Assembly: GCF_001695855.1 (NCBI RefSeq)
Contig: NZ_MBSS01000066.1
Location: 62,001-126,000 of the forward strand
Direction: 5' to 3'
DNA from: Ensifer sp. LC163
GTDB lineage: Bacteria > Pseudomonadota > Alphaproteobacteria > Rhizobiales > Rhizobiaceae
DNA length: 64,000 bases
Positions 26,502-37,391 of this stretch are shown here, in pieces (position 1 is the stretch's first letter; every line of letters begins with the position of its first letter). The notes under the pieces are model-generated. The model was given only the letters and a program-made list of their open reading frames with translations. It was not told where the DNA came from and ran no database searches. The position numbers were made by a program, and so were the translations under genes.

Positions 26502-27197
26502 TCAGACCGTCAGGTGACGCCTGGCCTCGACTGTGTCCAAAGTCTCCGGCGGCCCCTCATGCACCACGGCGCCGCGGTCCATGATGTAGACATGGTCCGC
26601 GAGCTCGCGGCAGAAATCGAGATACTGCTCGACCAGAAGGATCGCCATGCCCGTCGAATCGCGGAGATAGCGGATCGCCCGACCGATATCCTTGATGATC
26701 GACGGCTGGATCCCCTCGGTCGGTTCGTCGAGCACCAGGATGCGCGGCCGCGTGACGAGCGCCCGGCCGATCGCCAGTTGCTGCTGCTGGCCGCCGGAGA
26801 GATCGCCGCCGCGGCGCCCGAGCATCGAGCGAAGCACGGGGAAAAGATTGAAGACATCTTCCGGTATTGAGCGGTCGCCGCGCTTGACCGGCGCGTAGCC
26901 GGTCTCCAGGTTCTCCTTGACGGTGAGCAGCGGAAAGATCTCGCGGCCCTGTGGCACATAGCCGATACCCTCCTTGGCACGGCGATAGGGCGCCATGCCG
27001 CCGAGCGTCACGCCATTGAAGGTGATTGCCCCGGCACTGACCGGATGCTGCCCGGTGATGGCCCTGAGCAGGCTCGACTTGCCGACGCCGTTGCGGCCAA
27101 GCACGCAGGTGATCTTGCCCATCTCCGCGCCGATCGAGACATTGCGCAGCGCCTGTGCTGCGCCATAGTGGAGATTGACGTTTTCGACGCTCAGCAT
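26502..27197 (-). CDS. urtE: Urea ABC transporter ATP-binding protein UrtE
   Basis: A 231-aa ATPase of the branched-chain amino acid (LivF) class and the UrtE subfamily. Walker A is GRNGVGKS at 34-41, the signature LSGGQQQQLAIGRAL lies near 133, and Walker B is followed by LDEPTEGIQPSI, typical of UrtE. AAGGAAAGG precedes the ATG. It is the last gene of the urtABCDE operon and couples ATP use to urea uptake with UrtD. Confidence 0.95.
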   Translation of the reverse strand: MLSVENVNLHYGAAQALRNVSIGAEMGKITCVLGRNGVGKSSLLRAITGQHPVSAGAITFNGVTLGGMAPYRRAKEGIGYVPQGREIFPLLTVKENLETGYAPVKRGDRSIPEDVFNLFPVLRSMLGRRGGDLSGGQQQQLAIGRALVTRPRILVLDEPTEGIQPSIIKDIGRAIRYLRDSTGMAILLVEQYLDFCRELADHVYIMDRGAVVHEGPPETLDTVEARRHLTV

Positions 27198-27232: not shown

Positions 27233-27997
27233 TCAGCGGCCGAGATAGTTTTCGATCACCTTCGCATCACTGCTGACGAAGTCGATCGAGCCTTCGGCAA
27301 GCACCGCCCCTTCGGCCAGACACGTGACCTTGACGCCAAGCTCGCGGATGAAGCCCATGTCGTGTTCGACGACGACGACCGACCGCGTTCTCGCGATCTC
27401 CTTGAGCAGGATCGCCGTTTCGGCCGTCTCCGCGTCGGTCATGCCAGCCACCGGCTCGTCGACCAAAAGCAGCTCCGGTTCCTGCGCGAGCAGCATGCCG
27501 ATCTCCAGCCATTGCTTCTGCCCATGCGACAGGTTGGCGGCAAGATCATCGCGGCGCGCGCTGAGCCGAACGGTCGACAGGATCTCCTCGATCCGCGCCT
27601 TGTCGCCCGCCGTCAGCCGATAGAACAGCGTCGGGAAGACACCGCGGCTGCGATTGAGCGCCAGTTCCAGATTGTCCCAGATGGTGTGGCTTTCAAAGAC
27701 CGTCGGCTTCTGGAACTTGCGGCCGATGCCGAGACTGGCGATTTCGGCTTCGTCGCGCTTGGTGAGGTCAATATCGCCCTTGAAGAAGACCTGCCCTTCG
27801 TCGGGCCGCGTCTTGCCGGTGATGATGTCCATCATCGTGGTCTTGCCGGCGCCGTTCGGGCCGATGATGGCGCGAAGCTCGCCCGGCTCGATCACGAAGG
27901 AGAGCGAATTGAGCGCCTTGAAGCCGTCGAAGGAGACGGAGACGCCATCGAGATAGAGAAGGCTTTTCGGTTTCGTCTGGCTGATGGTCTGGTTCAT
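27233..27997 (-). CDS. urtD: Urea ABC transporter ATP-binding protein UrtD
   Basis: A 254-aa LivG-type ATPase. Walker A is GPNGAGKTT from residue 46, the signature-like NLSHGQKQWLEIGMLL and the VDEPVAGMTDAET Walker B region are typical of UrtD. GGAG eight bases before the ATG overlaps the urtC stop. It pairs with UrtE in the urea importer. Confidence 0.95.
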   Translation of the reverse strand: MNQTISQTKPKSLLYLDGVSVSFDGFKALNSLSFVIEPGELRAIIGPNGAGKTTMMDIITGKTRPDEGQVFFKGDIDLTKRDEAEIASLGIGRKFQKPTVFESHTIWDNLELALNRSRGVFPTLFYRLTAGDKARIEEILSTVRLSARRDDLAANLSHGQKQWLEIGMLLAQEPELLLVDEPVAGMTDAETAETAILLKEIARTRSVVVVEHDMGFIRELGVKVTCLAEGAVLAEGSIDFVSSDAKVIENYLGR

Positions 27998-28002
27998 GGC
28001 AA

Positions 28003-29166
28003 TTACTCCGCCGCCATGGGTTCAGCGACAAGGTTGTCGCGCGCGTTCTCGGCATCGGCCGCCCGGCGGTGAGCCTTGCGGCGGGCGAGATAGGCGCTCG
28101 CCGTGCCAACGACGCCTTTCGGCAGGAACAGCGTGACAAAGACGAACAGTCCGCCGAGCGCAAACAGCCAGAACTCGGGAAACGCCGCGGTGAAAATGCT
28201 CTTGCCGCCATTGACCAGGATTGCCCCGACGATCGGCCCGATCAACGTGCCGCGCCCGCCGACCGCCGTCCAGATGACGACTTCGATGGAATTGCCCGGT
28301 TCGAACTCGCCGGGATTGATGATGCCGACCTGCGGCACGTAAAGCGCGCCGGCGATGCCCGCCATCATCGCCGAGACGGTGAAGGCAAAGAGCTTGATGT
28401 GCTCGACACGGTAGCCGAGAAAACGCGTGCGGCTTTCCGCATCCCGCACCGCGACCAGCACCTTGCCGTATTTCGAGCGAACGATCGCCGTCGTCAGCAC
28501 CAGACATAAGGCGAGCGTCAGCGCGGATGCGGCAAAAAGGGCTGCCCGCGTGCCGTCGGCCTGGATGTTGAAGCCGAGAATGTCCTTGAAGTCGGTCAGG
28601 CCATTATTGCCGCCAAAACCCATGTCGTTGCGGAAGAAGGCAAGCAGCAGCGCATAGGTCATCGCCTGGGTGATGATCGAGAGGTAGACCCCGTTGACCC
28701 GCGAGCGGAAGGCAAACCAGCCGAAGACGAAGGCAAGCAGGCCGGGCACCAGCACCACCATCAGCGCCGCAAACCAGAACATGTCGAAGCCTTGCCAGAA
28801 CCATGGCAACTCCTTCCAATTGAGGAACACCATGAAATCCGGCAGCAACGGATTGCCATAGGAGCCGCGCGCGCCGATCTGGCGCATGAGATACATGCCC
28901 ATGGCATAACCACCGAGCGCGAAGAACGCGGCATGCCCCAGCGAAAGGATGCCGCAGAAACCCCAGACGAGATCGAGCGCCAGCGCCAGCAAGGCATAGG
29001 TCAGGTACTTGCCGAACAGCGAAACCAGAAAGGTCGGCACGTGCAGCGGGTGGTCCGGCGCAGTCAGCAGATTGAGGGCCGGAATGGCGATGGCAAGCCC
29101 CAGCAGGATCGCCACGACGACGACGATGCTGCGATCGAGCGACTTGAGCAGAAACGACGTGATCAT
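28003..29166 (-). CDS. urtC: Urea ABC transporter permease UrtC
   Basis: A 387-aa inner-membrane permease of the LivM class with about ten membrane segments. The UrtC features LVWGFCGILSLGHAAFFALGG and PQVGIINPGEFEPGNSIE are visible. The start overlaps the urtB stop by four bases (ATGA), so the two permease genes are translationally coupled. The C-terminus is a short basic cytoplasmic tail. Confidence 0.95.
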   Translation of the reverse strand: MITSFLLKSLDRSIVVVVAILLGLAIAIPALNLLTAPDHPLHVPTFLVSLFGKYLTYALLALALDLVWGFCGILSLGHAAFFALGGYAMGMYLMRQIGARGSYGNPLLPDFMVFLNWKELPWFWQGFDMFWFAALMVVLVPGLLAFVFGWFAFRSRVNGVYLSIITQAMTYALLLAFFRNDMGFGGNNGLTDFKDILGFNIQADGTRAALFAASALTLALCLVLTTAIVRSKYGKVLVAVRDAESRTRFLGYRVEHIKLFAFTVSAMMAGIAGALYVPQVGIINPGEFEPGNSIEVVIWTAVGGRGTLIGPIVGAILVNGGKSIFTAAFPEFWLFALGGLFVFVTLFLPKGVVGTASAYLARRKAHRRAADAENARDNLVAEPMAAE

Positions 29167-30779
29167 GCTTCCACCGCCCTTCCCTTGAGTGCGAAGAGAC
29201 CGCGCGGCTTCTTCTGGATAAAGAGGATGATCAGCACCAGGACGAGAATCTTACCGAGTACCGCGCCGGCATAGGGCTCGAGGAACTTGTTGAGGATACC
29301 GAGCGAAAACGCGCCGACCAGCGTCCCCCAGAGATTGCCGACGCCGCCGAAGACCACGACCATGAAGCTGTCGATGATGTAGCCCTGGCCGAGATTGGGC
29401 GAGACATTGTCGATCTGCGACAGCGCGACGCCGGCCATGCCGGCGATGCCGGAACCAAGTGCAAAGGTTAGGGCGTCCACCCATGGGGTGCGAATGCCCA
29501 TGGATGACGCCATGTGCCGGTTCTGTGTCACGGCGCGCATCCTGAGGCCCATCGACGTACGTTTCAGCAGGAACAGAAGTGCCGCGAAGACGGCAAGTGC
29601 AAATACGATGATCCAGAGCCGGTTCCAGGTGATCGTCAGACCGCCGAGTTCGAAGGCGCCCGCCATCCAGGAGGGGTTGCCGACCTCGCGATTGGTCGGC
29701 CCGAAGATCGAGCGGACCGATTGCTGCAGGATCAGCGAAATCCCCCAGGTTGCCAGCAAAGTTTCGAGCGGCCGACCATAGAGAAAGCGGATGACGCTGC
29801 GCTCGATGGCAAGGCCGACGATCCCGGTGACGAGAAAGGCGAGCGGCAGGGCGATCGCCAGCGACCAGTCGAACAGCGCCGGATAGGAGCCGCGGATGAC
29901 GTCCTGGACCAGGAATGTCGTATAGGCGCCGAGCATGACCATCTCGCCATGCGCCATGTTGATGATGCCCATGACGCCGAAGGTGATGGCAAGGCCGATG
30001 GCCGCCAGCAGAAGCACCGAGCCGAGCGACAGGCCATACCAGACATTCTGGCCGGCGTTCCAGAATGCCTGCGCCTGCTCGATGCGCTGCAGTGCGGCTT
30101 CGATATCCGGTTTCAGGCTCGCATCCGCCGAAGAAAGTGCGGAGGTCAGCACGCCAAGTGCCTCGCGACCACCGCCTTCCGCCAGCGCCTTGATCGCCGC
30201 GCGCTTATCGTCGTCGGGCCGATCCGAGACCAGAAGCGTGACCGCGCGCGCCTCGTCGAGCGTCTTGCGCACGGCGGCGTCCTTTTCAGCCGCAAGCGCC
30301 GTCTCGATCGCCTCGAGCGCGCCAGCGTTCGGGGTCTGGCGCATGGATTGCGCCGCCTTCAGCCTTGCCTCCGCATCGGCGCTGAAAAGCGTCAGGCCGC
30401 CGAGCGCGCTTCGAACGGCACGCCGGACAGCGTTGTTGACCTTGATTTTCTGCAGCTCGCCTTTCGGCACTTCGCCGATGTCCGCGCCATCAAGCGGATC
30501 GACAAGAACAAGGTTCGTGCCCTTCTCCGTGGTCAGGAACACGCCGCCATCGGCTTTTCGGGCGTAGAGATTGCCTTCGCCGAGCGCTTCGAGAACCGGG
30601 ATGACGCGCGGATCGCCGCTCTTAGCAAGCGCGGCAATGCGATCGTCCAATTCTGCCAGCTTGGCCGTTCCGAGCGCACTGATCAGGGCGCCGAGATCGT
30701 CCGCGGCGCGCAAGCCCGTGACATGGGCCGAAACCAATAGGCACAGGGTGATCAACAGGGTTTGCAGAATGCGGTACAT
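29163..30779 (-). CDS. urtB: Urea ABC transporter permease UrtB
   Basis: A 538-aa LivH-type permease. As usual in UrtB, a signal sequence and a long periplasmic helical-repeat region (about 25-240) precede the membrane domain, which holds ITFGVMGIINMAHGEMVMLG and MGIRTPWVDALTFALGSG. GAGAGGCG precedes the ATG. It is separated from urtA by a 185-base gap with a stable hairpin, which may lower expression of the membrane part relative to the binding protein. Confidence 0.94.
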   Translation of the reverse strand: MYRILQTLLITLCLLVSAHVTGLRAADDLGALISALGTAKLAELDDRIAALAKSGDPRVIPVLEALGEGNLYARKADGGVFLTTEKGTNLVLVDPLDGADIGEVPKGELQKIKVNNAVRRAVRSALGGLTLFSADAEARLKAAQSMRQTPNAGALEAIETALAAEKDAAVRKTLDEARAVTLLVSDRPDDDKRAAIKALAEGGGREALGVLTSALSSADASLKPDIEAALQRIEQAQAFWNAGQNVWYGLSLGSVLLLAAIGLAITFGVMGIINMAHGEMVMLGAYTTFLVQDVIRGSYPALFDWSLAIALPLAFLVTGIVGLAIERSVIRFLYGRPLETLLATWGISLILQQSVRSIFGPTNREVGNPSWMAGAFELGGLTITWNRLWIIVFALAVFAALLFLLKRTSMGLRMRAVTQNRHMASSMGIRTPWVDALTFALGSGIAGMAGVALSQIDNVSPNLGQGYIIDSFMVVVFGGVGNLWGTLVGAFSLGILNKFLEPYAGAVLGKILVLVLIILFIQKKPRGLFALKGRAVEA

Positions 30780-30964: not shown

Positions 30965-32257
30965 TCAGGAGCCCTTGCCGCCGCACTTGCCGGTGGCAAC
31001 GTTGAAGTTGCCGCAGGACATCGGCGCGCGCCAATCGGCGATCAGGTCTTTGGAGTCGGGCAGATAGTCGGACCATTCGTCGCCGACCACGAGGCCGGGC
31101 GTTTCCCAGACCGTCTCGAACTGGCCGTCGTCCTGGATCTCGCCGATCAGCACCGGCTTGGTGATGTGGTGGTTCGGCATCATCGTCGAATAACCGCCGG
31201 AAAGGTTGGGCACCGAGACGCCGATCATGGCGTCAAGCACCGCGTCGGTGTCGGTGGTGCCGGCCTTCTCGACAGCCTTCAGCCACATGTTGAAGCCGAT
31301 GTAATGGGCTTCCATCGGGTCGTTGGTGACGCGCTTGTCGTTCTTGGTATAGGCCTTCCAGGTCTTGATGAACTCGGCATTGGCAGCGGTATCGACCGAC
31401 TGGAAGTAGTTCCAGGCGGCGAGATGGCCGACGAGCGGGGCCGTATCGAGACCAGCGAGTTCCTCTTCGCCGACGGAGAAGGCGACGACGGGGATATCCT
31501 CGGCCTTGACGCCCTGGTTTGCCAGTTCCTTGTAGAACGGCACGTTCGCGTCGCCGTTGATCGTCGAGACGACGGCGGTCTTCTTGCCGGCGGAACCGAA
31601 TTTCTTGATGTCGGACACGATCGTCTGCCAGTCGGAATGGCCGAACGGCGTGTAGTTGATCATGATGTCTTCGGGCTTGACGCCCTTGGAGATGAGATAG
31701 GCCTCGAGGATCTTGTTGGTCGTGCGGGGATAGACGTAGTCGGTGCCGGCCAGCACCCAGCGTTCGACGCTTTCGTTTTCCATCAGATAGTCGACGGCCG
31801 GAACCGCCTGCTGGTTCGGTGCGGCACCGGTGTAGAAGACGTTGCGCTGGCTTTCCTCACCCTCGTATTGAACGGGGTAGAACAGGATCGAATTCAGCTC
31901 CTCGAACACCGGCAGGACGGACTTGCGCGACACCGACGTCCAGCAGCCGAACACGGCCGAAACCTTGTCGACGGAAACGAGTTCGCGTGCCTTTTCGGCA
32001 AAGAGCGGCCAGTCTGACGCCGGGTCGACGACAACCGCTTCAAGCTTTTTGCCGAGCAGGCCGCCCTTCTTGTTCTGCTCGTCGATGAGCATGAGCATGG
32101 CGTCCTTCAAGGTCGTCTCTGAGATCGCCATGGTTCCCGACAGCGAATGCAGAATGCCGACCTTGATCGTGTCGTCGGCCGCAAAGGCGCCGTTGAATGC
32201 CGTTGTCGACAGGACCGTTGCCAGGAAGGCGCCGGTGACGCGTGCCGTGATATTCAT
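30965..32257 (-). CDS. urtA: Urea ABC transporter substrate-binding protein UrtA
   Basis: A 430-aa periplasmic binding protein of the UrtA/AmiC type. It has a signal peptide (MNITARVTGAFLATVLSTTA, cleavage near residue 27), then the family start TIKVGILHSLSGTMAISE and the later GCWTSVSRKSVLPVFE. It delivers urea to UrtBC. The in-frame extension upstream is rejected because the signal peptide begins at 32257. It is the first gene of urtABCDE. Two TACGT sites about 100 bases upstream could be bound by the LuxR-type regulator encoded at 36456-37391. Confidence 0.95.
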   Translation of the reverse strand: MNITARVTGAFLATVLSTTAFNGAFAADDTIKVGILHSLSGTMAISETTLKDAMLMLIDEQNKKGGLLGKKLEAVVVDPASDWPLFAEKARELVSVDKVSAVFGCWTSVSRKSVLPVFEELNSILFYPVQYEGEESQRNVFYTGAAPNQQAVPAVDYLMENESVERWVLAGTDYVYPRTTNKILEAYLISKGVKPEDIMINYTPFGHSDWQTIVSDIKKFGSAGKKTAVVSTINGDANVPFYKELANQGVKAEDIPVVAFSVGEEELAGLDTAPLVGHLAAWNYFQSVDTAANAEFIKTWKAYTKNDKRVTNDPMEAHYIGFNMWLKAVEKAGTTDTDAVLDAMIGVSVPNLSGGYSTMMPNHHITKPVLIGEIQDDGQFETVWETPGLVVGDEWSDYLPDSKDLIADWRAPMSCGNFNVATGKCGGKGS

Positions 32258-32353
32258 CTGATTGAACCCCTCTCGTTCTGGTCGCCGCAACGAGGCCTCG
32301 TTCCTTTTGACCGTTGCTTGAGGGATCATCCGCCAGTCCTGCTGCACTGCACA

Positions 32354-32370
32354 TACGTCATTCTACGTAG
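32354..32370. promoter_or_regulatory. Two TACGT sites one helical turn apart before urtA
   Basis: TACGT at 32354-32358 and the palindrome CTACGTAG at 32363-32370 lie with centres about 10 bp apart, roughly 97-113 bases before the urtA start. Spaced TACGT-like half-sites are the kind of target used by NarL/FixJ-type response regulators, one of which is encoded close by. Confidence 0.4.
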
Positions 32371-32546: not shown

Positions 32547-32978
32547 ATGAAGGCACGAATCAAATGGGTTGAAGAGCGGACATTCGTCGGCGAATCCGGA
32601 AGCGGTCACAAGATCGTCCTCGGAACGGCCTCCGGTCCTGAGGGGCGTACTCCGGGCCCAAGCCCGATGGAGCTGATGCTGATCGGCGCCGGCGGCTGTT
32701 CGGCCTACGACGTGGTTCATATCCTTGAAAAGGGCCGCGAGCCGGTCGAGGATTGCACCGTGGAGCTCGACGCAGACCGCGCCGAAGAGGACCCCCGGGT
32801 CTTTACCCGCATCCATATGCACTTCGTGGTCAAGGGACGTGGCCTCGCGGAGAAAAAGGTCGAGCGCGCGATCGCCCTGTCCTTGGAAAAATACTGCTCG
32901 GCGTCAGCGATGCTCGCCAAGTCCGCGACGATCACGCATGATTTTGTCGTCGTCGACACGACCGCCGTGAGTGGATGA
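32547..32978 (+). CDS. OsmC family peroxiredoxin-like protein
   Basis: A 143-aa OsmC/YhfA-type protein. The redox cysteines are Cys51 (in GAGGCSAYD) and Cys117 (in LEKYCSASAM), matching the pair used by OsmC/Ohr proteins to reduce organic hydroperoxides. The upstream PGPSPMELML motif is typical of the YhfA subgroup, whose role is less well defined. It is divergent from urtA and precedes the permease-kinase gene. Confidence 0.9.
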   Translation: MKARIKWVEERTFVGESGSGHKIVLGTASGPEGRTPGPSPMELMLIGAGGCSAYDVVHILEKGREPVEDCTVELDADRAEEDPRVFTRIHMHFVVKGRGLAEKKVERAIALSLEKYCSASAMLAKSATITHDFVVVDTTAVSG

Positions 32979-33091: not shown

Positions 33092-36000
33092 ATGGCGGCA
33101 CGCCAGCGTATCATTCCCGTTCGACGAGAATACAATCGCTGGGTCGCCGACCAGACGCTTGAAGACTATGCGCTGCGCTTCACGGCCAAGAGTGCGCGGC
33201 GCTTTTCCTCCGGGCGCATTTCGCAGACCGCGATCGGCGCGATCTCGTTCCTGGCGCTGGAGGCGATCGGCGGCGCCATCACCATGTCCTACGGCACGAC
33301 CAACGCCATCGTCGCCATTCTGATCGCCAGCCTGATGATCCTGACGGTCGGCCTGCCGATCAGCCGCTACGCGATCCGCCACGGCGTCGATATCGACCTT
33401 CTGACCCGTGGCGCAAGCTTCGGTTACATCGGCTCGACGCTGACCTCGCTGATCTATGCCAGCTTCACCTTCATCCTCTTTGCGATCGAGGCCTCAATCA
33501 TGTCTGGGGCGCTCGAGCTTGCGCTCGGCATGCCGCTTTGGGTCGGCTACATCGTCAGCGCGGCCGTCGTCATCCCGCTCGTCACCCACGGCGTGCGCCT
33601 CATCAGCAAGTTCCAGTTGATCACCCAGCCCTTCTGGATCGTGCTCAACGTCCTGCCCTTCGTCTTCATCGCCTTTGCCGACTGGGAGAAGGTCGGCATC
33701 TGGCTCGCCTATGCCGGCATCCATCATGCGTCCGGACCGCCGGGCACGCTCGCGCCCTTCGACCTCATCGAGTTCGGGGCCGCCTCCGCGGTGATCTTCG
33801 CGCTGATGGCGCAGATCGGCGAGCAGGTCGACTTCCTGCGCTTTCTGCCGCCGGACGGCCAGCGCAAACTGCATCATCGCATCGCCGTCTTCCTGGCCGG
33901 TTCCGGCTGGGTTCTGGTCGGTGCGCCAAAGCTTTTGGCCGGCTCCTTTCTCGTCGTGCTCGCCCTCTCATCCGGCGTTCCGTCGACGCGGGCCGCGGAC
34001 CCGGCACAGATGTACTACACCGCCTTCGGCTACATGATCCCGTCTGAGACGGCCGCCCTCCTGCTGATGGTCGCTTTCGTCGTCGTCTCGCAGTTGAAGA
34101 TCAACGTCATGAACGCCTATGCCGGGTCGCTCGCCTGGTCCAATTTCTTCTCCCGCCTCACCCACAGCCATCCCGGCCGTGTCGTGTGGCTGGTGTTCAA
34201 TGTGGCTATCGCGCTGCTCTTGATGGAGCTCGGCATCTACCGGCTGCTCGAGGAGACGCTCGGCGTCTTCTCCATCATTGCGATGGCCTGGCTCTGCACC
34301 ATTTCGGCCGATCTCTTCGTCAACAAACCGCTCGGTCTCTCTCCGCCCGGCATCGAGTTCAAGCGCGCCCATCTCTACGATATCAATCCTGTCGGGCTCG
34401 GCGCCATGGCGCTCTCGGCAACGATCGCGCTGACGGCGCATTTCGGCGCCTTCGGCGCCATCGCCGCATCGCTTGCGCCTTACATCGCCCTGATCGTCGC
34501 CTTCATCGCCTCGCCGCTGATCGCCTGGGCGACCGGCGGCAAATATTATCTCGCCCGCAAGCCGAGAAAGAGCTGGGCGAGAGAGAGCGAGATCACCTGC
34601 TCGATCTGCGAGCATCCCTTCGAGCCGGAGGACATGGCCTGGTGTCCCGCCTATGCCGCACCGATCTGCTCGCTCTGTTGCTCGCTCGACAGCCGCTGCC
34701 ACGACATGTGCAAGCCGAAGGCGCGGTTCAATGCGCAGGTGGCAACGGTCGCGCACGCCCTTTTGCCTGAAACGGTGACCGCCAAGCTGGCGACGCGGCT
34801 CGGTCGTTACGCCATTTCGGCTGTGCTCTCGATCGCAGGCATAGGTCTGATCCTGGCGATGATCGCACACCAGACAGGCAACGCCTCGCCGGAAACCGCT
34901 GTAGTCGTCGAGCGAACGATTGCCGTCGTCTTCTTTGTCTTTGCCGTGCTTGCCGGCATCGTCTGCTGGTTCTATGTGCTTGCTCACGACAGCCGCGTGG
35001 TCGCCGAGGAAGAATCATCGCGACAGAACACGCTGCTCCTGAAGGAAATCGCCGCGCACAAGAAGACCGATGCGGCCCTGCAGCAGGCAAAAGAGACTGC
35101 CGAGGCGGCCAATCGCGCCAAAAGCCGCTATGTCGTCGGCCTCAGCCATGAGCTGCGGACGCCGCTCAACGCGGTGCTGGGTTACGCGCAGGTGCTCGAG
35201 CGCGACGAAACGATCCCGCCGGCGCGACAGGGCGCGATCAAGGTGATCAGGCGCAGCGCCGACCACCTCTCCGGCCTCATCGACGGGCTTCTCGATATTT
35301 CCAAGATCGAGGCCGGCAAGCTGCAGGTCTATTCCAACGAGATCAACATTCACGACTTCCTCGATCAGGTCGTCGAGATGTTCCGCCCGCAGGCGCAAGC
35401 GAAAGGCATCGCCTTCGAACATCGGCGTGCTGCCGCCTTGCCGCGCTACGTCAAGACCGACGAAAAACGGCTGCGCCAGATCCTCGTCAATCTGCTGTCC
35501 AATGCGCTGAAGTTCACCGAACGCGGCGAGATCCGCTTCGACATCGACTATCGCAGCCAGGTCGCGACGTTCACGATCAGTGACAGCGGCCGCGGCATCG
35601 CCGAGAAGGACCTGCCGCGCATCTTCGATCCGTTCCAGCGCGGCGAAGCGGAGCACCTCGGCAGCATGCCGGGCTTGGGCCTCGGATTGACCATCACCCG
35701 TTTGCTGACCCAGACGCTTGGTGGCGAAATATCCGTGACCAGCGAGCCGAACAAGGGCACGACCTTCAAGGTCCGGCTGATGCTTTCCGCCGTCGATCGG
35801 CCGGCGCCGCTGGTGGCGGTGCGCCGGATCACATCCTATCTCGGCCCGCGGCGCACGATCATGGTCGTCGACGACAACGCCGACCACCGCGACCTGATGC
35901 GCGAAATTCTCACACCCATGGACTTCACCGTGCTTGCAGCCGAAAGCGGCAAGCAATGCCTTGCGATGGTTGAGGCGCTGGCGCCGGACATCTTCCTGGT

Positions 36001-36478
36001 CGACATCTCCATGCCTGATATGAACGGTTGGGAACTCGTCGACAGACTGCGCAGAGGCGGGCAGACGGCGCCGATCATCATGCTTTCCGCCAATATCGGC
36101 GACGGCTCGACCACCGGCGCCCTTGTCGGTCACAACGATACGCTCGCCAAACCCTTCGGTGTCGGCCAACTCGCCGACAAGCTCGCCGTTCAGCTCGGCC
36201 TCACCTTTGTCCATGAGGGCGACGCGTTCGAGGAACCGAGGGCTGTAAAGGCGGGTGCCATGACGTTGCCCGGTCAGCACCATGTCGAGGAGTTGATCCG
36301 GCTCGGCGAGATCGGCTACGTCAGAGGCATCGAGGCCAAGCTGAGGGAAATCGCCCTGGAACCGGAACATCAGCTCTTCGTCGATGCAGCCCGCGCCTAT
36401 GTCCAGGCCTTCGACCTCTCGGGCTACGATGCCTTCCTGAGGGAAAAAGCGGAGAATGGAGCCGTCACCCGTGGTTGA
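33092..36478 (+). CDS. Hybrid sensor histidine kinase with an N-terminal NCS1-type permease domain
   Basis: A 1128-aa membrane kinase. Residues about 45-490 resemble an NCS1 nucleobase/allantoin permease with about 12 membrane segments (early YALRFTAKSARRFS, then GTTNAIVAILIASLMI). A cluster of eight cysteines follows (503, 506, 518, 526, 529, 530, 536, 540), likely a zinc or redox knuckle. Two more membrane segments (about 572-592 and 610-632) and a coiled coil lead to the kinase: His686 in SHELRTPLN, an N-box near 800, and GLGLGL near 862. A receiver domain with Asp971 follows, then a 90-residue tail. GAGG lies four bases before the ATG. Its stop lies inside the start of the LuxR-type regulator gene. 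Its place beside urtABCDE suggests sensing of urea or a purine breakdown product; this is inference. Confidence 0.88.
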   Translation: MAARQRIIPVRREYNRWVADQTLEDYALRFTAKSARRFSSGRISQTAIGAISFLALEAIGGAITMSYGTTNAIVAILIASLMILTVGLPISRYAIRHGVDIDLLTRGASFGYIGSTLTSLIYASFTFILFAIEASIMSGALELALGMPLWVGYIVSAAVVIPLVTHGVRLISKFQLITQPFWIVLNVLPFVFIAFADWEKVGIWLAYAGIHHASGPPGTLAPFDLIEFGAASAVIFALMAQIGEQVDFLRFLPPDGQRKLHHRIAVFLAGSGWVLVGAPKLLAGSFLVVLALSSGVPSTRAADPAQMYYTAFGYMIPSETAALLLMVAFVVVSQLKINVMNAYAGSLAWSNFFSRLTHSHPGRVVWLVFNVAIALLLMELGIYRLLEETLGVFSIIAMAWLCTISADLFVNKPLGLSPPGIEFKRAHLYDINPVGLGAMALSATIALTAHFGAFGAIAASLAPYIALIVAFIASPLIAWATGGKYYLARKPRKSWARESEITCSICEHPFEPEDMAWCPAYAAPICSLCCSLDSRCHDMCKPKARFNAQVATVAHALLPETVTAKLATRLGRYAISAVLSIAGIGLILAMIAHQTGNASPETAVVVERTIAVVFFVFAVLAGIVCWFYVLAHDSRVVAEEESSRQNTLLLKEIAAHKKTDAALQQAKETAEAANRAKSRYVVGLSHELRTPLNAVLGYAQVLERDETIPPARQGAIKVIRRSADHLSGLIDGLLDISKIEAGKLQVYSNEINIHDFLDQVVEMFRPQAQAKGIAFEHRRAAALPRYVKTDEKRLRQILVNLLSNALKFTERGEIRFDIDYRSQVATFTISDSGRGIAEKDLPRIFDPFQRGEAEHLGSMPGLGLGLTITRLLTQTLGGEISVTSEPNKGTTFKVRLMLSAVDRPAPLVAVRRITSYLGPRRTIMVVDDNADHRDLMREILTPMDFTVLAAESGKQCLAMVEALAPDIFLVDISMPDMNGWELVDRLRRGGQTAPIIMLSANIGDGSTTGALVGHNDTLAKPFGVGQLADKLAVQLGLTFVHEGDAFEEPRAVKAGAMTLPGQHHVEELIRLGEIGYVRGIEAKLREIALEPEHQLFVDAARAYVQAFDLSGYDAFLREKAENGAVTRG

Positions 36479-37391
36479 GACTTACGCTCGTCGCGACATC
36501 GTGCTGCTGGTGGACGATTCTCCCGAAGCGCTCGGTTTTCTGACCGAAGCGCTGGAGCAGTCGGGCTTCTCCGTGCTGATCGCCACTTCGGGCCATGCCG
36601 CCCTATCGATTGCCGAGCGGATCACGCCCGACGTCATTCTGCTGGACGCGGTCATGCCCGGCATGGACGGGTTCGAAACCTGCCTGAGACTGAAGGCCAA
36701 CGCATCCGTCGGCCAAACGCCGGTGCTGTTCATGACCGGGCTGACGGAGACCGAGCATGTGGTTCATGCACTCGAGGCCGGTGGCGTCGACTACCTGACA
36801 AAGCCGATCAACATCGATGAGCTGAGGGCTCGCATCCGCGTTCACCTCTCCAACGCCCGCTCGGCGCAAAGCGCGCGCGTCGCGCTCGATGCCGCCGGGC
36901 GCCATCTGCTCGCCGTGCGCTCGGATGGCGGTGTTCGCTGGTCGACACCGCAGGCAGCTCGCCTCGTCAACGCCGCAACCGGCAGCGACGAGGGCCTCGC
37001 GACGATCGCACACCGTATCGCCGCCTGGCTGGAGAAGACCGGAGCCGGCGGCAAGCGGGAGAATAGTTTTACTCTGGAAGAACCCGGGCAATCCGGACTG
37101 CAGATCTCGTTTCTCGGCGCGATCGGCGCCAACGAGTATCTCTTCCGCCTGACGGCCGAAAGCCGACGGAGCGACGACGAGATGCTGCGGCAGCATTTCG
37201 CGCTGACCCAACGCGAATCCGAAGTGCTGCTCTGGATCGCCAAGGGGAAATCCAACCGCGATATCGGCGAGATCCTCGGCTTGAGTTCGCGCACCGTCAC
37301 CAAGCATCTCGAACAGATCTATGTGAAGCTCGGCGTCGAAAACCGCGCCTCGGCCGCGGTCAAGGCGACACAGGTCCTGCACGGGATTTAG
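36456..37391 (+). CDS. LuxR-type response regulator, partner of the permease-fused kinase
   Basis: A 311-aa regulator with an N-terminal receiver domain (VLLVDDSPEA; phospho-acceptor Asp64 in LLDAVMPGMDG; TKPINIDEL) and a C-terminal LuxR/FixJ helix-turn-helix (FALTQRESEVLLWIAKGKSN at about 248-267, then IGEILGLSSRTVTKHLEQIY). A 100-residue middle region (about 130-230) is unassigned and may be a degenerate sensor domain. The gene overlaps the kinase gene by 23 bases, so the proteins are made together. It probably controls urtABCDE, whose promoter carries spaced TACGT sites. Confidence 0.92.
   Translation: MEPSPVVETYARRDIVLLVDDSPEALGFLTEALEQSGFSVLIATSGHAALSIAERITPDVILLDAVMPGMDGFETCLRLKANASVGQTPVLFMTGLTETEHVVHALEAGGVDYLTKPINIDELRARIRVHLSNARSAQSARVALDAAGRHLLAVRSDGGVRWSTPQAARLVNAATGSDEGLATIAHRIAAWLEKTGAGGKRENSFTLEEPGQSGLQISFLGAIGANEYLFRLTAESRRSDDEMLRQHFALTQRESEVLLWIAKGKSNRDIGEILGLSSRTVTKHLEQIYVKLGVENRASAAVKATQVLHGI

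Follow-up and report, generated by a model that had tools for sequence, protein, structure and literature searches.

What does a histidine kinase that begins with a permease sense, and which genes does it control? The question is raised by a 64,000-nucleotide stretch of Ensifer sp. LC163 (contig NZ_MBSS01000066.1, positions 62,001 to 126,000; hereafter the window), in which a hybrid kinase with a permease-like N-terminal domain and its LuxR-type partner regulator are encoded beside urtABCDE, the genes of a urea ATP-binding cassette (ABC) transporter. An earlier note on this DNA had proposed that the pair senses a purine breakdown product or urea through a transporter-like sensor and sets urea uptake accordingly. 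The reading that fits best, and that we consider probable, is that the kinase is a receptor for urea or short amides, built from a permease, and that the pair activates urt.

Profile comparisons confirm the N-terminal domain as a divergent derivative of the NCS1 permeases. In hhalign comparisons, an alignment of the window kinase with 43 homologues of 47-85% identity (44 rows) reached a probability of 97.0% (E 1.2e-10) against 16 NCS1 proteins combined into one profile and 98.0% (E 2.4e-13; 394 columns, residues 24-483) against an Mhp1-led NCS1 profile, and it was homologous to a CodB-led profile over 311 columns; profiles of SSS (13 proteins), AA_permease_2 (17) and NCS2 (18) gave 0.1% each. 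Hydropathy averaged over the 44 rows places 12 segments in residues 47-478 and two more at 573-631, so the NCS1-type permease with about 12 membrane segments and the two further membrane segments before the kinase domains, both described in the earlier note, are borne out. The claim of an NCS1 fold rests on sequence profiles because the predicted structure of residues 1-640, made from a shallow alignment of 23 near-identical rows, gave no usable fold (predicted local distance difference test, pLDDT, 42). Pfam, including its NCS1 model, found no permease match in the window kinase even at E 10 and none in the 44 rows at E 1; the NCBIfam 'cytosine permease' (CodB) model matched 14 of the 44 rows (best 5.8e-9), the window's own row not among them, and phmmer with the N-terminus against the PDB returned only chance matches to G-protein constructs. 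Downstream, Pfam recovers the kinase and receiver domains of the hybrid kinase and, in a regulator gene that overlaps the kinase gene by 23 nucleotides (nt), a receiver and a GerE helix-turn-helix (HTH) domain, all in agreement with the earlier note.

The kinase is linked to urea and amide genes far above chance. Two sets of loci were compared, with neighbours counted by tblastn and genes named by scanning one representative per cluster with NCBIfam and Pfam models. The near set comprises 80 Rhizobiaceae loci kept from 498 relatives in GTDB genomes, and the far set 80 loci from genomes matching a model of the N-terminal domain, with 15 matching genomes, mostly of the same family or genus, omitted. 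This model matched 20 of 289 genomes from the class, 53 of 398 from the phylum and 30 of 150 from the order (draws that overlap and include the window's own genome). The regulator lies directly downstream of the kinase in 80/80 near loci, and urt lies nearby in 75; four more have urtA, with the same promoter site as described below, at 9.9-12.7 kb, and the fifth (L017) is a 7-kb contig. In the far set the regulator is present in 77/80 loci and missing from L183, L184 and L201, the last of which ends within the kinase; a match in L184 with 28% identity on the opposite strand was not counted. At least one uptake or hydrolysis system for urea, formamide or acetamide accompanies 75 of the 80 loci in the far set. 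Of these, 25 have a urtA of the same kind as the window, 41 an UrtA-like transporter with formamidase genes, seven urease without urtA in the examined stretch (three of the seven with urtC-E) and two formamidase only. By gene, fmdA occurs 42 times, fmdB 35, aliphatic amidase 14 and urease alpha 11. The linkage to urt on which the earlier note had built thus extends to relatives near and far.

The second UrtA-like kind was separated by our own similarity criterion, being closer to the L145 protein, and we take it to be an amide transporter since fmdA stands beside it, as argued in the available text of PMC3098086, where formamide or acetamide is proposed for such transporters beside formamidase and amidase genes. 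In the kinase tree, the urt label requires at least six gains or losses by well-supported branches (L003 and L008 counted as linked), and linkage to urt has therefore arisen or been lost repeatedly. Four genomes (G428, G492, G513 and G636) carry two kinase copies each, beside different systems. Two recurrent neighbouring 'genes' were dropped, x149 as an antisense shadow of amiE and x147 because it overlaps ureF on the other strand. Separately, L183 and L184 encode kinase variants of about 880 residues without receiver or partner regulator, beside formamidase genes and on a long tree branch.

The pair very probably controls urt through a palindrome in the urtA promoter. In the near set, TACG-N8-CGTA lies upstream of urtA in all 75 of the 75 loci that have this gene, in most cases at a distance of 86-99 nt to its start codon; the spacings of 112 nt in one locus and 151-156 nt in three perhaps reflect misplaced starts. 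The 1.84 Mb searched contain only five further exact sites, and one of the five belongs to urtA of L008. In the far set, the same motif stands between kinase and divergent transporter in 29/41 amide-type and 16/18 urt loci (45/59), against 4-7 for the top dyad in each of five shuffles, and the longer form TACGTC-N4-GACGTA in 10/41 and 15/18, against 1-2; 49 sites fall in 24 kb and 20 in the remaining part of 1.53 Mb. These whole-sequence counts supersede a control on random 350-nt stretches (26/1600), which was not clean since the stretches could cover a real site. The palindrome tracks the target genes and not the kinase: it precedes a separately transcribed fmdA in L152, L159, L160, L162, L163 and L164, and in L175, L180, L196 and L198, where 3-10 kb separate urtA from the kinase, it is found at urtA or a short way ahead of it. 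As a negative control, 36 genomes were searched with urtA, of which 19 have a close urtA (75-88% identity), 18 of them lacking the kinase. No site occurs within 400 nt of urtA in any of these 18 (best three mismatches), and the only kinase-bearing genome among the 19 (G663) has an exact site; 75/75 versus 0/18 gives a Fisher p of 1e-19 over rows that are not independent. On pSymB of Sinorhizobium meliloti 1021, kinase (match from 1622168), regulator, urtABCDE and the same site (at 1620465) occur together.

Within its own 6.5-Mb genome, the Ensifer motif has three places within one mismatch, one being that of urtA. Another (C45:269853; L315 7854-7869) lies near a GNAT acetyltransferase gene and gyrB; it has no evident urea link and may be due to chance, though two related Ensifer genomes share this 16-mer. 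In L136-L138, three loci of one genus with no amide genes nearby, TACG-N8-CGTA is found 109-153 nt upstream of the kinase, which suggests self-regulation there.

The promoter context bears on the direction of control. A -10-like element follows the operator at a fixed distance, with A at position 25 and T at position 29 in every one of the 76 urtA promoters of the near set, that of the window included, and this spacing puts the centre of the site near -45. The site of CrbR, likewise an inverted repeat (ACTU), spans positions -52 to -36 relative to the start site in the accessible part of PMC5715377, and by this analogy activation is the likelier sign; we regard activation rather than repression as likely. 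The putative phospho-acceptor of the regulator, Asp64, is present in 155/155 sequences, and mean identity over 154 relatives is 81% in the HTH, 75% in the receiver and 49% in the middle part, as expected if the DNA site is common to the family. We infer that the regulator binds the predicted palindrome.

The ligand question turns on the permease pocket. Across 91 kinases, namely that of the window, 11 from near loci and 79 from the far set of 80, E133, Q241, E244, Q245, D247, R250, Q334, K336, N338, N341 and Y343 never vary. The aromatic sandwich by which NCS1 transporters enclose nucleobases or hydantoins (Trp in transmembrane segment (TM) 3, Phe or Trp in TM6) is without a clear counterpart in these kinases. 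We take W117 and W220 of Mhp1 to be the equivalents of the sandwich pair of CodB (the Mhp1 residue letters were checked in the alignment). The Mhp1-led alignment places W117 on L129 of the window, a TM3 position that is Leu or Phe, never Trp, in the 91 kinases, and the CodB-led alignment agrees in TM3 (Q105 on T126, W108 on L129). In TM6 an invariant Leu238 lies near the second sandwich aromatic, in a loose alignment that is uncertain by a few residues. Gln121 of Mhp1 corresponds to the invariant Glu133, Asn318 is kept as N341, and Ser312/Thr313 of the Na2 site align with Lys336/Ile337, so that the Na2 hydroxyls of TM8 are not kept; the CodB-led alignment shifts TM8 by two residues, with Gln334/Leu335 at the Na2 site, and single TM8 pairings are tentative. 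In CodB, W108 and F204 sandwich the substrate, and the aromatic pair is conserved throughout NCS1 according to the available portion of PMC9379551. The missing sandwich makes a purine or hydantoin an unlikely signal. A small polar compound suits the pocket better than a nucleobase would, and the probable ligand is urea or a short amide, which the NCS1 domain would bind.

Relatives of the permease domain that lack a kinase point the same way. Plasmid records hold free-standing homologues with 40-48% identity to the window (nine aligned). Ten such loci were inspected among those listed, nine of them annotated, and urease, formamidase or amidase genes lie beside 7/9 annotated permeases, two of the seven encoding the same protein. 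A urease operon neighbours the permease in Acinetobacter johnsonii and A. ursingii (the same protein) and in a Klebsiella pneumoniae record carrying chromosomal genes, a formamidase in Moraxella osloensis and Tsukamurella, and an aliphatic amidase in Arthrobacter U41; in Methylovirgula, permease, formamidase, kinase pair and amidase stand all together. At the tenth, unannotated locus, from A. baumannii, the permease and a kinase-regulator pair are divergent and flank a TACG-N8-CGTA site. Of 18 checked membrane positions, 16 are identical to the window in 9/9 aligned free-standing permeases (D100, D102, R106, T126, E133, L238, Q241, E244, Q245, D247, R250, Q334, K336, N338, N341 and Y343), and position 129 is Phe. 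Given these conserved positions and the urease, formamidase and amidase loci, the nearest kinase-less kin look like permeases for urea, formamide or acetamide. The free-standing form was uncommon in the draw of 398 genomes, in which only frames of 894-1365 residues were found at E 1e-40.

Three permeases beside urease and formamidase genes carry 'cytosine' or 'allantoin' permease labels (L391 5956-7563, L357 5663-7270 and L358 9914-11557); they are probably urea or amide permeases, and the labels look wrong. A 'cytosine permease' of Pantoea that neighbours a nitrilase-type gene has only 26% identity and was not counted as kin. Relatives of the permease domain occur in 342 Klebsiella plasmid records, at least two in the free-standing form. 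The one pKPN3-type plasmid opened, NZ_KY271405.1 (L359), carries a whole system: kinase, a 43% identical regulator, the site TACGTCATTTAACGTA, an Urt-like transporter and formamidase. A 2026 preprint (PMC13060141) treats this cluster of transporter and formamidase genes; the terms 'histidine kinase' and 'two-component' are absent from its main text.

Between permease and kinase lies the dense eight-cysteine (Cys8) cluster to which the earlier note had drawn attention, with all eight cysteines (residues 503-540) invariant in 44/44 aligned rows and in 91/91 of the larger set. By segment topology, cluster and kinase would face the cytoplasm. C503 aligns with a Cys in 9/9 free-standing permeases; C506, C526 and C529 are kept in six of the nine and jointly lost in the other three, and the full eight occur only in the Methylovirgula permease. 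The joint loss fits a single four-cysteine metal site, to which the kinases would have added a complete second one, and the cluster may thus be a cytoplasmic metal site, for which zinc is a guess. A model of the Cys module and hairpin (42 rows) reached pLDDT 69 and a predicted template modelling score of 0.38, with the cysteine part at about 52-66; its best Foldseek match in the PDB had E 0.68, and LIM and PHD fingers appeared weakly amid the noise. A profile search gave only two zinc-finger or Cys-rich matches (E 3.5 and 4.7), and residues 477-673 match no Pfam family above cut-off, in scans without a dedicated STAC model. Three urease-linked kinases (L147, L185 and L186) have an additional stretch between permease domain and Cys cluster.

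We propose that the pair is a dedicated control system for urea, and in relatives for urea, formamide or acetamide, whose N-terminal domain would have evolved from a small-amide permease of the NCS1 fold and would now act as the receptor. On occupying the substrate pocket inherited from that permease, urea or a short amide would change the conformation of the permease-like domain, and the Cys8 module in the cytoplasm and then the two-helix hairpin would relay this change to the kinase. Phosphate would then reach Asp64 of the regulator by a His686-Asp971 phosphorelay, by direct transfer, or both, and the regulator, on TACGTC-N4-GACGTA about 45 bp before the urtA transcription start, would activate the urt operon. 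On a wider scale, a whole NCS1-fold clade may have turned specific for urea and short-chain amides, as free-standing permeases and as kinase-fused receptors across Pseudomonadota, with an invariant Lys replacing a sodium ion, and receptors and one operator may have moved repeatedly between urea, formamide and acetamide operons; we hold this wider picture to be evenly balanced between right and wrong.

Several observations weigh against the urea/amide receptor. The same invariant pocket stands beside urea-type and formamide-type systems, which leaves specificity unexplained; only position 129 differs by system (Leu in 31 of 37 kinases linked to urt, Phe in 40 of 41 linked to amide genes), a difference confounded with ancestry. 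Glu57, invariant in the 91 kinases, is Phe or Gln in 9/9 free-standing permeases, and no amide gene lies near two of the nine (Streptomyces angustmyceticus and Arthrobacter NicSoilB11). Five far loci (L136-L138, L142 and L187, the last 4.8 kb long) have no amide gene in the examined stretch. The division of transporters is similarity-based, and the L145 binding protein also passes the NCBIfam UrtA cut-off. As to the operator, the stretch between the two genes contains no exact palindrome in 14/59 far loci: L156, L158, L173 and L176 have a one-mismatch form, L152, L159 and L160 have the site before fmdA, and seven (L139, L144, L145, L161 and L205-L207) have none. In the examined stretch, an exact site is found in 0/7 urease-type far loci, and in three of these the urtA promoter lies outside that stretch. 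The far-set -10-like element is also weaker (A 29/40, T 29/40) and shifted by one.

Other readings of the same kinase can be set against these data. A purine breakdown product (allantoin, uric acid or hydantoin) sensed by the NCS1 domain would agree with what NCS1 relatives carry and with the 'allantoin permease' labels of some free-standing homologues, which we take as automatic naming. We nevertheless consider such a ligand very improbable: the aromatic sandwich is absent, the genes around kinases and free-standing kin alike are those of urea, formamide and acetamide use, and none of 10 recurrent neighbour proteins scanned (not all clusters) was named as a purine-degradation enzyme. Of the earlier proposal, then, the NCS1-derived sensor and the tie of the pair to urea uptake stand, and the purine product falls away. 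A kinase that reads the state of the UrtABCDE or FmdDEF transporter as a flux sensor, with no ligand of its own, would account for the frequent linkage to a binding-protein-dependent transporter; it would leave the conserved ligand-site-like residues without explanation, and L147, L177, L185 and L186 lie beside urease genes with no urt gene in the examined stretch, so that we find it improbable.

Somewhat less improbable, though still unlikely, is that nitrogen status, redox or zinc is sensed through the Cys8 cluster or the kinase core, with the permease-like domain as a mere anchor. The invariance of eight cysteines that are presumably cytoplasmic would suit such a role, but E133, Q241, K336, N338, N341 and other pocket residues are equally invariant, the neighbouring genes are specific for small amides, and the retention of C506, C526 and C529 in most kinase-less permeases, with their joint loss in the others, fits a structural metal site. 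The permease-like domain might also still transport its ligand, the kinase reading transport or occupancy, as discussed for CbrA, a histidine transporter with a Lys side chain in its Na2 site (PMC13022988, in the part available). Such a transceptor would be compatible with the urea/amide receptor, and the invariant Lys336 at the position of Mhp1 Ser312 and the near-identity of the membrane positions to those of nine free-standing relatives speak for it; the urea ABC transporter encoded alongside makes transport by the kinase unneeded, and Glu57 differs from the free-standing forms, and we regard it as a possibility of the minor sort.

The urea/amide receptor has parallels among known sensors. 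CrbS/CrbR (MxtR/ErdR), CbrA/CbrB and RpuS/RpuR, the SLC5-STAC systems, likewise fuse a permease-type sensor to a kinase; CrbS is a hybrid too, and CrbS and RpuS have LuxR-type partners like that of the window kinase. The Na2-site lysine of CbrA recalls Lys336. In contrast to these kinases, the permease here is of the NCS1 and not the SLC5 type (the SSS comparison above), a Cys8 module and a two-helix hairpin appear to take the place of STAC and PAS, the targets are urea and amide genes, and the palindrome is TACGTC-N4-GACGTA. Ks-Amt5 of Kuenenia stuttgartiensis also uses a nitrogen-source transporter domain as sensor (accessible text of PMC5764959), but with the Amt fold and for ammonium, and Pfam scans of the window kinase found no match to the Amt (ammonium transporter) family. 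Mhp1 and CodB are homologues of the domain itself that differ from it at the sandwich and, for Mhp1, at Gln121 and the Na2 site, and UrtABCDE and FmdDEF-type transporter clusters are its linked target operons; the linked sensor pair and its DNA site were not found in the available text of PMC3098086. The pair groups with transporter-fused kinases by mode of work, not with SLC5/STAC or Amt by descent. Among the matches listed in a search of mostly openly available literature, there was no NCS1-fused kinase and no description of this pair.

The layout of the locus in the window is given in Table 1. All five Urt subunits exceed NCBIfam's own cut-offs. The earlier note had placed the kinase next to urtABCDE, which is correct with two refinements: urt is encoded on the other strand, and urtA and the kinase are separated by an OsmC-family gene. 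By tblastn, only 5/80 near loci have this gene. The longest open reading frame (ORF) of urtA begins at 32347; the ATG at 32257 is preferred as the start because of a signal-peptide-like beginning, in our own reading, and the constant spacing in relatives.

Table 1. Coordinates of the kinase, regulator, urt genes and promoter elements in the window.
Feature	Position	Strand	Details and basis
Predicted operator TACGTCATTCTACGTA	32354..32369	.	One mismatch from TACGTC-N4-GACGTA; 96 nt upstream of urtA ATG
-10-like hexamer GATGAT	32325..32330	-	24-29 nt downstream of operator edge
Hybrid histidine kinase with NCS1-type permease domain	33092..36478	+	1128 aa; ORF and domain scans
NCS1-permease-derived domain, residues about 22-483	33155..34540	+	12 hydrophobic segments; hhalign (residues 24-483) and hydropathy
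Cys8 cluster, residues 503-540	34598..34711	+	C503 C506 C518 C526 C529 C530 C536 C540; alignment
Two extra hydrophobic segments, residues 573-591 and 613-631	34808..34984	+	Hydropathy
HisKA, residues 677-742	35120..35317	+	Pfam; phospho-acceptor His686, His in 91/91 kinases
HATPase_c, residues 789-898	35456..35785	+	Pfam
Kinase receiver, residues 923-1031	35858..36184	+	Pfam; Asp971, Asp in 89/91 kinases, gap in 2
LuxR/NarL-type response regulator	36456..37391	+	311 aa; REC 16-128 and GerE HTH 250-304 (Pfam); HTH region 250-306; Asp64
urtA, urea ABC transporter binding protein	30965..32257	-	TIGR03407, 570.6 bits (cut-off 492.75)
urtB	29163..30779	-	TIGR03409, 438.5 bits (cut-off 250.3)
urtC	28003..29166	-	TIGR03408, 452.1 bits (cut-off 296.2)
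urtD	27233..27997	-	TIGR03411, 379.7 bits (cut-off 304.1)
urtE	26502..27197	-	TIGR03410, 334.3 bits (cut-off 285.8)
OsmC-family gene, between urtA and kinase	32547-32978		143 aa; ORF and domain scan

Urea is a major nitrogen source in soil, in the sea and in animals, and among the matches listed in the same literature there was no dedicated urea-sensing two-component system. If the proposed urea/amide receptor is correct, NCS1 would be the third kind of permease, besides SLC5 and Amt, to have been made into a kinase sensor, and a new substrate class is suggested for NCS1-fold permeases. The reading would also assign a function to genes that plasmid records label 'ATP-binding protein', 'response regulator' or ArcB-like.

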